NCBI RefSeq assembly: GCF_000313565.1
Contig: NZ_HE578933.1
Span: 1-64,000 of the forward strand
From: Dielma fastidiosa
GTDB lineage: Bacteria > Bacillota_I > Bacilli_A > Erysipelotrichales > Erysipelotrichaceae
Direction: 5' to 3'
DNA: 64,000 nt
A model generated the notes under the pieces. That model worked only from the letters and a program-made list of their open reading frames with translations, was not told where the DNA came from and did not search any database. Every line of letters begins with the position of its first letter. The first letter of the stretch is position 1. Below are positions 20,620 to 25,554 of this stretch, in pieces. The position numbers and the translations under genes are program-made.

Positions 20620-21402
20620 CTATTCATTGACCAATTTTATTTCTGAACATTTTTCTTTAATTTCGGCAAGTGATTCATCACTTAAATGATTATCAGTAAT
20701 AATCATATCGACATCTTCAACATTGCAGATACTCCAGCGCTTTACCAAGCCATATTTTGAACTATCGGCACATAGAACTACCTTTTTCGCACATTGAAGC
20801 ATGGCTTTTTTTGTACTCACATCATCAAGGTAGGTATGCGTGATGCCTGTTTTATTATCAAAAGCGGCTACACCCATAAAATAGAGATCCACATTCAATG
20901 ATTTCAAGATTTCTACGATCGTAGGGCCATAAAGGTCAAAGGATTCCTTATGCTTCATGCCGCCTAATACAAACAATGAAAGATTATCGTTTTCAGCTTC
21001 AGCAAGTGTATAAGCAACCTTTAAATCACAGGTTATAACGGTTAAATTTTCAATATCACGGCGTTTAACTAATTCTTTTGCCAGATACCAAATCGTACTG
21101 CCGGAATCCAGTATGATTGACTGATTGCTTTGAATCAGCGAAACCGCCTGAGTGGCGATGGCTTCTTTATAAGCCTTGTTATAGAGCTCTTTTTTATTGA
21201 TTGGCAATTCAAAGGTCTGCATCGGTAAGTTGCTGACTACCCCGCCATGTACCTTGCGGATACTTTCTTCTTTTTCTAAATCAGTTAAATCACGGTTTAA
21301 GGTAGCTTTTGAAATATGAAAATGCTCCAGTAATTCCGCAATGGATACAGTCCCTTTATTATTGATATATTGCAGCAGGTCGATTTGTCTTTGATATTTC
21401 AC
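20620..21402 (-). CDS. DeoR family regulator of the PTS operon (inferred)
   Basis: 260 residues: DeoR-type winged HTH (MKYQRQIDLLQYINNKGTVSIAELLEHFHISKATLNRDL, residues 1-39) and a DeoRC sugar-phosphate sensing domain with DSGSTIWYLAKEL near 99-111 and the closing ADSSKYG segment. Such proteins repress sugar operons and respond to a phosphorylated intermediate. It lies directly downstream of the PTS operon. A TATATCAT element at 21442-21449, over its own -10 region, matches the repeats at the PTS promoter, which suggests autoregulation. It is compared here with SgcR of the E. coli sgc cluster by analogy only. Confidence 0.9.
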   Translation of the reverse strand: MKYQRQIDLLQYINNKGTVSIAELLEHFHISKATLNRDLTDLEKEESIRKVHGGVVSNLPMQTFELPINKKELYNKAYKEAIATQAVSLIQSNQSIILDSGSTIWYLAKELVKRRDIENLTVITCDLKVAYTLAEAENDNLSLFVLGGMKHKESFDLYGPTIVEILKSLNVDLYFMGVAAFDNKTGITHTYLDDVSTKKAMLQCAKKVVLCADSSKYGLVKRWSICNVEDVDMIITDNHLSDESLAEIKEKCSEIKLVNE

Positions 21403-21439: not shown

Positions 21440-21468
21440 ATTATATCATTTCACACATTAAACGACAA
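21440..21468 (-). promoter_or_regulatory. Promoter of the DeoR-type regulator gene
   Basis: On the minus strand TTGTCG (21468-21463) and TATAAT (21445-21440) are 17 bases apart. The TATATCAT operator-like word at 21442-21449 overlaps the -10 box. Confidence 0.5.
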
Positions 21469-21488: not shown

Positions 21489-22121
21489 TCACAGATTCAT
21501 CAGTTCCTGAAAGCTGTGAACCTCAAGATCAGCCTTGGAGGTATCCTGAATAATTTTAGAACCCTTATAACCAATTACCCGCATGCCTGCTGCTTTGCCG
21601 GCATTGATGCCATTGACAGAATCTTCAATAACCAGGCATTCATCTGTCTCTACACCCAGCTGTTCTGCCGCTTTTTGAAAGATTTCCGGATGCGGCTTGG
21701 AATGGCTTACCATTTCACCGCTTACCACTAAATCAAAGGCTGCTTCAATATGCAATGCAGTCAGCACCTGATTGATCCATCCTTGTTCAGATGATGAAGC
21801 TAGTGCGATTCTGATGTTTTTACGCTTTAAAAATTCAAGAAAAGACAGCAGGCCAGGCATCGGTTCAAGAACGCTTTTTGCGACTTCACAGTCAAAGGCT
21901 TCATCCTGCAGCGCCGACAACTCTTCTGCCTTATAGGGAAGCGGATAATGAGCAATCAAATAATTAGAAATAGCATCCATCTTCATGCCGACAACCACAG
22001 CTAATTCATCGATTTCCGCATAAACATTCAATCTCGCCAATAAGCTTTTCAGGCTATGCAGATAGATCCATTCACTATCCAAAAGCACACCATCCATGTC
22101 AAATAGGACAGCCTTAATCAT
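21489..22121 (-). CDS. HAD superfamily phosphatase / beta-phosphoglucomutase-like
   Basis: 210-residue HAD hydrolase of subfamily IA. Motif I is FDMDGVLLDSE at residues 7-17 with Asp8 as nucleophile and Asp10 as acid/base, motif II is ALASSSEQGW, the Lys is in SHSKPHPEIF, and motif IV is CLVIEDSVNG. The helical cap (about 18-85) resembles phosphoglycolate phosphatases and beta-PGM. It is the last gene of the PTS operon and overlaps the BtpA-like gene by 8 bases, so it likely dephosphorylates or isomerises the PTS product. The substrate is unknown. Confidence 0.87.
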   Translation of the reverse strand: MIKAVLFDMDGVLLDSEWIYLHSLKSLLARLNVYAEIDELAVVVGMKMDAISNYLIAHYPLPYKAEELSALQDEAFDCEVAKSVLEPMPGLLSFLEFLKRKNIRIALASSSEQGWINQVLTALHIEAAFDLVVSGEMVSHSKPHPEIFQKAAEQLGVETDECLVIEDSVNGINAGKAAGMRVIGYKGSKIIQDTSKADLEVHSFQELMNL

Positions 22122-22935
22122 AAATCTTCCGCAATTCCTTTACCTTATCCATAAAGGCTTTTACGCGCTCACCATCGATCTGATTTCTGAATTTACCTTC
22201 TTTTTTGAAGCTTGTTCCGACAAATGCGCCGTCAACAACAGCCAAGTAATCCTGTACGTTATCAATTTTAACACCAGTGGCCGCAAACAGCACCGCATCA
22301 GGATACGCTTCCCGGCATGTTTTTAATGTTGAGACATCTACTTTCTGGCCTGCTACCATACCAGCAACAGCAATACCGTCAGGCTGATTTAGAAAATATG
22401 TCGGCTTCATGATGGCGATGGGATCACGGCCGCCTACATCAGCAGCTGATTCAGGAATTAAATAATGAATTAATTTAAAATCGTCAATCCCTAAATTATG
22501 CTTCAAACGAACGGCACCGCCGCCATTGCTGTCACAAAAACCACTGCTGGTTGCCCAAGTGCCATGATAAACACCGCGGGTAAATAAAGCACCGCTGGCT
22601 GCCGCAAGCGAAATGCTCGCCATATCATCACTGATGCAGTCATTGCCGTAAGGCAGCTTAATTTCCGCTCTTAAAGCTCCCATGACGTAGGCCATCGCCG
22701 CCACTGTTTCAAATTCTACCTTGGCCATATAAGGTGTACTGAATTCATTGGTAAATAATAAGCCGTCTACCCCGCCTTCCTGCAAGGCTAAAACATCAGC
22801 CCGTGCCATATCGATCACCTTCTGCATACCGCCTTCTTGATCATAATAAGGATCACCGGGCAGCGGCTGCATATGCACCAGTCCAATAATCGCTTTTTTT
22901 GTTTTAAATGTTTCTTCAATCCAGTTTTTATCCAT
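22114..22935 (-). CDS. BtpA/SgcQ family TIM-barrel protein
   Basis: 273 residues matching the BtpA/SgcQ family: KAIIGLVHMQPLPGDPYYD near 14-32, EGGVDGLLFTNEFSTPY, and a C-terminal DNVQDYLAVVDGAFVGTSFK barrel segment. BtpA was linked to photosystem I stability in cyanobacteria, while SgcQ sits in a PTS gene cluster in E. coli; the biochemical activity is not settled. Here it lies between PTS IID and a HAD phosphatase, so an enzymatic step on an imported sugar phosphate is the best guess. AAAAGGAGAGCG precedes the start. Confidence 0.85.
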   Translation of the reverse strand: MDKNWIEETFKTKKAIIGLVHMQPLPGDPYYDQEGGMQKVIDMARADVLALQEGGVDGLLFTNEFSTPYMAKVEFETVAAMAYVMGALRAEIKLPYGNDCISDDMASISLAAASGALFTRGVYHGTWATSSGFCDSNGGGAVRLKHNLGIDDFKLIHYLIPESAADVGGRDPIAIMKPTYFLNQPDGIAVAGMVAGQKVDVSTLKTCREAYPDAVLFAATGVKIDNVQDYLAVVDGAFVGTSFKKEGKFRNQIDGERVKAFMDKVKELRKIYD

Positions 22936-22955: not shown

Positions 22956-23792
22956 TTAGAACACACCAAGGAATGCACCGGCAATACCGATCACCACAAG
23001 AATCAGCATAATTTTAATAACTGATACATTCTTTCTGATCAATGCGTACAAGCCCAGAACAGTTCCTACACTTAATAATCCCGGCATAATTTCATCAAGC
23101 AGCGGCTGAATTTCAACAACTGTTTCGCCGAAAGTAAAGACTGCCGTTGTCGAGATTGCCACATAATTTGCGACCATGCAGCCGGCTACCGTCAAACCGA
23201 GGATGCCCATGCAGTCTGTCAGTTTGCGGATGATTGCCGCATCGTTGATTTTACTGAAAGCATTGCGGCCCATCTTATAGCCGGTAAAATACATCATATA
23301 GCCGACGCCTAGGATATAGGCAGTATAAACAAAGAAGAACATAATCGGTCCAAATACATTGCCGGCAAGTCCCATTTCAACAGCAATGGCCAACAAGATC
23401 GTTTTGACAAGCCCCTGTGTAATCGTATCACCAACTCCGGCTAAAGGTCCCATTAAACCAATCTTTAAGCCGTTGATTACTTCATCTGAATAATCCATGC
23501 CGTTAGCCCGTTCTTCCTCGATTGAAGCAATCATGCCTGGAATTAAGGCACCCCATTGATTTTCAGTATTAAAGAATGCCATATGTCTTGTTAGACCGGC
23601 AGCTAAATCTTCTTTATCAGGATATAATCTTTTTAGAATCGGGACCATGGCATGACAGAAGCCCAAAGACATCAGACGCTCATAGCTCAAACACATTTCT
23701 GATGTCAATTCCCAAATCATAAAACTTTTCATCAAATCTGAACGGCGCAGTTCAATTTTCTTTTCGGTGTTATTTTCCATTGTTTGTTCCAT
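22956..23792 (-). CDS. PTS mannose/fructose/sorbose family IID component
   Basis: 278-residue membrane component of a mannose-family permease. The family features are an N-terminal LMKSFMIWELTSEMCLSYERLMSLGF, the HMAFFNTENQWG motif near 70-81, GLMGPLAGVGDTITQG, and three to four C-terminal membrane segments. It works with IIC (next upstream) to transport the sugar. The ATG at 23792 follows AGGAGG. The gap to IIC is 2 bases. Confidence 0.93.
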   Translation of the reverse strand: MEQTMENNTEKKIELRRSDLMKSFMIWELTSEMCLSYERLMSLGFCHAMVPILKRLYPDKEDLAAGLTRHMAFFNTENQWGALIPGMIASIEEERANGMDYSDEVINGLKIGLMGPLAGVGDTITQGLVKTILLAIAVEMGLAGNVFGPIMFFFVYTAYILGVGYMMYFTGYKMGRNAFSKINDAAIIRKLTDCMGILGLTVAGCMVANYVAISTTAVFTFGETVVEIQPLLDEIMPGLLSVGTVLGLYALIRKNVSVIKIMLILVVIGIAGAFLGVF

Positions 23793-23794
23793 GA

Positions 23795-24538
23795 TTAAGC
23801 CTCCTGTTCATCTCGGTAACTGAACCAATAAAGAATTGCAAACGCACCGCCAAGCAGTGAAACAGGGATGATTCCCAATCCTAAATAGACAGATACTACA
23901 TAACCGATAATAAAATATGGAATAAAGCGGAAGCTGAATAAAGCTTTCAGCAGCATCGCGATTCCCAGTGCCGGCAGCAGCATACCAACCGCTTCAAGAC
24001 CGCTTAATAATACCTCCGGCAGCATGTTTAAGAATTCATTCAGATATTCAGCACCATAGTATACACATAAGAAGGCTGGTATAAAATAGAGAAAGAAATT
24101 CAAAATCTGCGGACAGATTACATTATAGAAAAAGATCCCCTGCGTATTTGCATTTTCAGCACACGTATCCGCGCGGTGAACAAAGAATGAACTGAGCGTC
24201 ATCTTTGATGTTTCTACGACCATGCCAAATAAACCAAACGATACCGCAATCGTAACCCCCATTTCATAGCCTGAATGGGTTGCAATTGCTAAGGCGGTCG
24301 CAACGCAGCCGGCCATTGGATAATCGACAGAGCTGATGCCGCCAACCATGATATTTCCCATATATACTAGCTGAGTCATTGATCCGATAATCAGTCCCGC
24401 CTGCATATCGCCCATGATTGCACCGATAATCGGGCCGAAGATAATAGGTGAACAAAGCTGAATGGACCAGCATGTAAATTCGATTCCCGATGCACATAGC
24501 CAAGTACAAAGTGCAACCAGGATTGCTTGTGTGAACAT
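23795..24538 (-). CDS. PTS mannose/fructose/sorbose family IIC component
   Basis: 247-residue polytopic membrane protein with about seven hydrophobic segments, the substrate-binding channel part of the permease. Features are IIGAIMGDMQAGLIIGSMTQLVYMG near 38-62 and VDYPMAGCVATALAIATHSG, with the conserved loop motifs of the SorC/ManY family. It has a GGGAGG ribosome binding site and is followed closely by IID. The sugar specificity is not readable from the sequence. Confidence 0.93.
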   Translation of the reverse strand: MFTQAILVALCTWLCASGIEFTCWSIQLCSPIIFGPIIGAIMGDMQAGLIIGSMTQLVYMGNIMVGGISSVDYPMAGCVATALAIATHSGYEMGVTIAVSFGLFGMVVETSKMTLSSFFVHRADTCAENANTQGIFFYNVICPQILNFFLYFIPAFLCVYYGAEYLNEFLNMLPEVLLSGLEAVGMLLPALGIAMLLKALFSFRFIPYFIIGYVVSVYLGLGIIPVSLLGGAFAILYWFSYRDEQEA

Positions 24539-24553
24539 AATATTCCTCCCTTT

Positions 24554-25027
24554 TTATTTTAAATTTTTCAAATCAATTTGCTTATCATTTGGTGTCGCTT
24601 GAAAATAAACACGGATTCCCGCATCTTCCATTGCTTTTAATACAGCAACTTCATCATCACTGGCAGATACATTTTTATAAAGATTTTTACGTGTTTTACT
24701 AGCGCCCATACCGCCGACATTCAAAGCTCTCAGCATAGCACCGCTGTCAAATACTTTTTGAGCCGTCTGCGGTGTTTTCATCAGCAGCACTGTATTTTTA
24801 TCATCCGCTTCATATTCCGCAATCAACTGTGTCAAATTGTCGGTTCCCTCAATTCTTAATTCAATACCGGAAGGTGCAACCATCTTCAGCACATTGATCA
24901 AAAAGCTGTCAGCAGCTACCTGATCATCGATAATTAAAATCTTTTTAGCCTGATAATTCTTGATCCAAGCGGTTACGACCTGGCCATGAATCAAGCGGTC
25001 ATCGATGCGTATAAACTTAATACTCAT
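24554..25027 (-). CDS. PTS mannose/fructose/sorbose family IIB component
   Basis: 157-residue cytoplasmic phosphotransfer protein. The active-site His14 lies in RIDDRLIHGQVVTAW, the classical IIB-Man motif. It accepts phosphate from IIA and passes it to the sugar during transport. IIA and IIB are separate polypeptides here rather than fused as in E. coli ManX. It lies 7 bases after IIA. Confidence 0.94.
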   Translation of the reverse strand: MSIKFIRIDDRLIHGQVVTAWIKNYQAKKILIIDDQVAADSFLINVLKMVAPSGIELRIEGTDNLTQLIAEYEADDKNTVLLMKTPQTAQKVFDSGAMLRALNVGGMGASKTRKNLYKNVSASDDEVAVLKAMEDAGIRVYFQATPNDKQIDLKNLK

Positions 25028-25034
25028 TTTTCAC

Positions 25035-25445
25035 TCACTCCTTTGCAAAGCTGTTTAATAATTCATTTTTAGTCATTAAACTCTTCATTCCCATGTTCTT
25101 AGCAAATTCTGCTAATTCATCCAGTGCATAATGTTCCTGATTCAGCATAACCTCCAGCATCATGCCAAGATTGACACCTACTACAACCTGCACATTCGGC
25201 TTTTGAAGTCTGCCGATAATGCTGTTGAAGGGTGTTCCTCCTAAAATATCAATCAGCACAAGAAATTCATGATCAGGATATTGCAGGAAAACCTCTTCAA
25301 GCGTTTCTTTATACGCTTCCGGTGCCATTCCTGCCTGCAAGCCAACCGCAAGCATGTCCTCATGCGGACCGATAATCATCTGCGTGGTCTCCAGCAACGC
25401 CTGCGCTAAGCTGCCGTGTGTTGCGAGTATCACTTTTCTTTTCAT
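25035..25445 (-). CDS. PTS mannose/fructose family IIA component
   Basis: 136-residue IIA-Man domain with active His10 in KVILATHGSLAQALLETT, accepting phosphate from HPr; DILGGTPFNSI near 74-84 is the second landmark. The start at 25445 was chosen because it gives the normal IIA N-terminus and AAAGGGGT precedes it; an in-frame ATG at 25481 lies within the -10 region of the promoter and would add 12 unrelated residues. It is the first gene of the IIA-IIB-IIC-IID-BtpA-HAD operon. Confidence 0.93.
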   Translation of the reverse strand: MKRKVILATHGSLAQALLETTQMIIGPHEDMLAVGLQAGMAPEAYKETLEEVFLQYPDHEFLVLIDILGGTPFNSIIGRLQKPNVQVVVGVNLGMMLEVMLNQEHYALDELAEFAKNMGMKSLMTKNELLNSFAKE

Positions 25446-25471
25446 CTTGGTACCCCTTTCTTTATACTCAA

Positions 25472-25499
25472 AGTATATCATTTTATTTCATTATGTCAA
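25472..25499 (-). promoter_or_regulatory. Promoter of the PTS/BtpA operon
   Basis: On the minus strand a perfect TTGACA (25499-25494) and TATACT (25477-25472) are separated by 16 bases. The ATG of the IIA gene is 27 bases beyond the -10. Direct repeats cover the whole promoter. Confidence 0.75.
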
Positions 25500-25554
25500 C
25501 TTAATATCTCATATTATTTCACATAAAATCAAGTAATATCTCATTTTATCTCAT
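25474..25554 (-). repeat. Operator array: three pairs of an 8-bp direct repeat
   Basis: On the plus strand the 8-mer TATNTCAT occurs at 25474 (TATATCAT), 25484 (TATTTCAT), 25505 (TATCTCAT), 25515 (TATTTCAC), 25537 (TATCTCAT) and 25547 (TATCTCAT). Within each pair the copies are exactly 10 bases apart; successive pairs start 31 and 32 bases apart. So all sites lie on one face of the helix. The first pair overlaps the -10/spacer, the second and third lie upstream of the -35 box. DeoR-family repressors bind direct repeats, and the DeoR gene downstream carries one such word in its own promoter. Confidence 0.7.

Follow-up and report, generated by a model that had tools for sequence, protein, structure and literature searches.

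The window, by which we mean the entire analysed stretch of 64,000 nucleotides, carries on its minus strand an operon encoding, in this order, IIA, IIB, IIC and IID of a mannose/sorbose-family PTS, a BtpA/SgcQ protein, a HAD phosphatase and, as the last gene, a DeoR-family regulator. Three pairs of direct repeats lie over and upstream of its promoter:

25537–25554, minus strand: distal pair, direct repeats ATGAGATA-AA-ATGAGATA
25505–25522, minus strand: middle pair, GTGAAATA-AT-ATGAGATA, the first half-site with one mismatch to the 8-mer of the sequence-only reading
25474–25491, minus strand: proximal pair, ATGAAATA-AA-ATGATATA, within the promoter spacer and −10
25472–25499, minus strand: promoter TTGACA-16-TATACT with an extended −10 (TG before the −10), 11 of 12 matches
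25035–25445, minus strand: PTS EIIA, mannose family (PF03610), likely start ATG 25445
24554–25027, minus strand: PTS EIIB, sorbose/mannose family (PF03830)
23795–24538, minus strand: PTS EIIC (PF03609)
22956–23792, minus strand: PTS EIID (PF03613)
22114–22935, minus strand: BtpA/SgcQ family protein (PF03437 and TIGR00259)
21489–22121, minus strand: HAD-family phosphatase, beta-phosphoglucomutase-like (PF13419)
20620–21402, minus strand: DeoR-family regulator (PF08220 and PF00455), the proposed ligand of the array

The regulator is composed of an N-terminal HTH_DeoR domain (57.6 bits, cut-off 21) and a C-terminal DeoRC sensor domain (148.7 bits, cut-off 31.8). At the other end of the operon, the mechanical open reading frame of IIA starts at 25481, within the promoter; the ATG at 25445, which follows AGAAAGGGG, is the likelier start.

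The 8-mers of the array start at 25474, 25484, 25505, 25515, 25537 and 25547 in the same orientation and read, on the plus strand and in this order, TATATCAT, TATTTCAT, TATCTCAT, TATTTCAC, TATCTCAT and TATCTCAT (25474–25554). The sequence-only reading had described six identical 8-mers within 81 bases; the six positions and their single orientation are confirmed, but only five copies are exactly TATNTCAT, the sixth (25515–25522) being TATTTCAC with C replacing the last T. Recomputed from these starts, the copies within each of the three pairs are 10 bases apart and the pairs follow each other at 31 and 32 bases, as had been claimed, and all six starts are found on one helical face within 1 bp (at 10.5 bp per turn). 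Along the direction of transcription, i.e. on the minus strand, the array reads ATGAGATAAAATGAGATA, 14 nt, GTGAAATAATATGAGATA, 13 nt, ATGAAATAAAATGATATA, with ATGARATAWW as the half-site, repeated head to tail. The near-consensus TTGACA/TATACT promoter previously placed under the array is indeed present on the minus strand at 25499–25472; the nearest pair occupies its spacer and −10, while the other pairs are located upstream of the −35.

The array at the PTS/BtpA promoter is real and not a product of chance. When the 165-bp intergenic region was shuffled 20,000 times with its dinucleotides preserved, five copies of the 8-mer never arose (mean 0.17, maximum 3), and five copies of any 8-mer with one free position arose in 2 of 3,000 shuffles. 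Furthermore, at lag 10 this region matches itself at 57% of positions, compared with an expected 35% (z 4.2). An A+T content of 73% in the array region and a period that is about helical could point to phased A+T-rich DNA, acting by curvature or like an UP element, or to a chance tandem duplication instead of protein-binding sites. This is very unlikely, as the invariant positions spell TGA and AT and form no A-tracts, dinucleotide shuffles do not reproduce the array, the spacers between the pairs differ, contrary to a simple duplication, and both motif and position recur in a second genome.

This genome, G006, belongs to the same family but another genus and contains the seven genes in identical order, with 77% identity for BtpA and 65% for DeoR. 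Its IIA promoter sequence is TTGATAAAATGAAATGTTATGATATACTTTGAGTATA, with the core elements TTGATA-TATACT. A half-site matrix built from the six copies of the window was scanned across the 8-kb G006 locus, and the two top-scoring pairs are located over the −10 and 32 bp farther upstream:

L040:5618-5601: G006 counterpart of the proximal pair, ATGAAATGTTATGATATA
L040:5650-5632: G006 counterpart of the middle pair, ATGATATAATAATGAAATT

For the middle pair, an equal score within 1 bp of its position occurs in 1 of 20,000 shuffles (P about 5e-5); the third pair, ATGAAATTATCGATATA, is weak and is matched in about 7% of shuffles. The period within pairs is 10 and 11 bp in G006 versus 10 bp in all three pairs of the window. 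In the ungapped alignment of window and G006, 30 of 48 site columns agree compared to 20 of 40 spacer columns, so that conservation of individual letters is mainly a feature of the −10, the proximal pair and the 19-nt ATGATATACTTTGAGTATA; farther upstream, the motif and its phase are retained rather than every base. Since the proximal pair overlaps the conserved extended −10, part of its conservation is explained by that of the promoter. The search for the repeats in front of the orthologous operon, proposed earlier as a check, has thus recovered the promoter and the proximal and middle pairs, with a weak third one. Both DeoR orthologs have the same recognition helix, SKATLNRDL, in keeping with their common motif; it differs from the SEATIRRDL-type helix of other DeoR proteins of the order.

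The 19 nt of ATGATATACTTTGAGTATA (window 25463–25481, minus strand) are identical between window and G006 and contain an inverted repeat, TATACT-TTG-AGTATA, that runs across the −10 and the probable start of transcription. TTGAGTATA lies in 10-bp phase with the two proximal half-sites, to which it could add a weak third one. G006 also harbors four identical copies of ATGAAATAGTATGAAATA (C1:620860, C1:1147461, C1:1271062 and C1:1504998; L121, L123, L125 and L127). The two copies inspected fall outside open frames of at least 100 aa, and the four may belong to a dispersed repeat and not be operators at all.

Besides G006, no ortholog of the DeoR protein was found in the genus, in 315 genomes of the order or in sampled genomes of the class (395) and the phylum (392). 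Among the matches listed by a tblastn search of plasmids there were only DeoR homologs of about 33–35% identity, and scans of genome contigs revealed no relatives of IID or DeoR.

Within the 3.6-Mb genome to which the window belongs, searched by pattern matching only, RTGADATNNNRTGADATA occurs five times without mismatch. Three occurrences are the pairs of the array and two are situated inside open frames; the other intergenic DNA of the genome contains no exact paired motif. A weaker intergenic match is present at C4:166569-166586 (GTGAAATTATGTGAAATT). The target of the array thus looks local, as judged from this distribution. This bears on the possibility that a different regulator binds the array, be it a DeoR paralog encoded elsewhere or an activator from some other family, in which case the pairs upstream of the −35 would function in activation. 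Two of the three pairs are indeed located where activators bind, and the genome encodes six further full-length DeoR paralogs. Such a regulator is nonetheless improbable, given that the exact paired motif is confined to this promoter as far as intergenic DNA is concerned, that one pair lies across the −10 and spacer, as would suit a repressor, and that a DeoR gene is part of the operon and accompanies both operon and motif in another genus.

A further copy had been noted in front of the DeoR gene. The 8-mer is present at 21442–21449 as ATGATATA and does overlap a −10, lying inside the extended −10 ATGATATAAT of a promoter-like TTGTCG-17-TATAAT, but an operator role for it was rejected. It is a lone extended −10 match of a kind expected by chance (21 single TATNTCAT in the window versus 20.5 expected), no paired site scores near 21442 in the paired-motif scan, and the G006 DeoR gene is not preceded by a counterpart. 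As the DeoR gene is part of the operon, autoregulation is still expected, through the same promoter.

In order to compare the array with other DeoR loci, intergenic DNA of 34 such loci from the same genome and from the order was inspected for repeat events, defined as 10 of 12 identical positions, along with control DNA of equal size from other loci. At lag 10, 12 events are found at the DeoR loci versus 2 in the control; the DeoR loci further show 2 events at lag 11, 7 at lag 20 and 0–1 at each of the remaining lags from 6 to 17. Some of the 34 loci are mutually related and therefore not all events are independent. At L086, an operon of fructose type as judged from gene names assigned by reading the ORF sequences, three ATCAAAAACA-like repeats precede a TTGACATATTC element and about four follow it. 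At L071, next to a gene that reads as deoC, ATGAAAGTAAATGAAAC is located upstream of TTGACA, and more phased repeats are found downstream. Arrays of six to seven copies at these two loci make six or seven half-sites ordinary here, and the earlier impression that six sites exceed the usual number is not upheld. Phased 10-bp arrays of ACAATCAAAN/ATGATTGTTT flank TTGACA on both sides in the DeoR-linked operons at L086:907-1027, L073:906-1010 and L084:2678-2785.

Most probably, the array serves as operator for the DeoR-family repressor whose gene closes this operon, a prediction to which we assign a probability of about 0.8 because of the conservation in G006, the absence of further exact paired motifs from the intergenic DNA of the genome and the 10-bp repeats at other DeoR loci. 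The single orthologous operon found, the weak third pair of G006 and the six other DeoR paralogs were counted against it. The core of the sequence-only reading is hence strengthened by comparison, while two of its elements, a site at a promoter of the DeoR gene itself and an unusual number of half-sites, are given up.

We infer that the DeoR protein binds the array with one dimer per pair, cooperatively and as a repressor that responds to an inducer. Each pair, ATGARATAWW twice at 10 bp, would constitute a single operator unit that probably accommodates a dimer of the repressor, and the three units, aligned on one face, extend across the promoter from the −10 to a point some 55 bp beyond the −35 on its upstream side. 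When no sugar signal is present, repressor at the proximal unit would block RNA polymerase in the spacer and at the −10, and repressors at the two upstream units would reinforce the block via contacts along the helical face; cooperative binding is a fair inference. A phosphorylated sugar, probably made by the operon's own PTS, would then free the repressors. It is doubtful that a stacked or filament-like oligomer of DeoR assembles from the three in-phase units to silence the promoter with high cooperativity, with ATGATATACTTTGAGTATA as an extra contact; to our knowledge, no such stoichiometry has been described for this class of regulators.

The array yields a concrete candidate operator motif, the paired ATGARATAWW, for a so far uncharacterised DeoR regulator that is encoded in a mannose-family PTS/BtpA operon. 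Face-aligned multi-copy 10-bp arrays recur at DeoR-linked operons of the order, which aids regulator annotation; the array belongs to an already known kind and alters no general view.

A literature search on IolR tandem 11-mers and multi-operator DeoR regulators gave nothing usable. Among family models, the window regulator scores best with those of AgaR and SrlR, the DeoR-family regulators of E. coli; AgaR exerts negative control of a PTS sugar pathway (PMC4694137). Both scores are under the equivalog cut-offs (AgaR, NF040755: 167.6 bits versus a curated 260), too low to assign orthology or the sugar of the operon. In Caldicellulosiruptor, DeoR-family sites either overlap promoters or fall within 5′ UTRs (PMC8579813), and the array likewise overlaps and flanks the promoter of its regulator's own operon. 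Its repeats also have the 10–11 bp period of DeoR-family operators. PMC3870299 describes the motifs predicted for DeoR-family RhaR in four lineages, one of them validated in Chloroflexus, as two imperfect direct repeats with 10–11 bp periodicity. The present units resemble these RhaR operators in having two such repeats per site and a regulator encoded with the sugar operon. They differ in sequence and in that three in-phase units precede one promoter, a per-promoter count of units being absent from the text consulted. Within the same family, the fructose-type operon at L086 and L073 is similar in its phased 10-bp repeats (about three plus four) around TTGACA and in the DeoR gene contained in the operon, whereas its half-site, in an operon whose genes were named from sequence, is close to ACAATCAAAN and its copies are found on both sides of the promoter.
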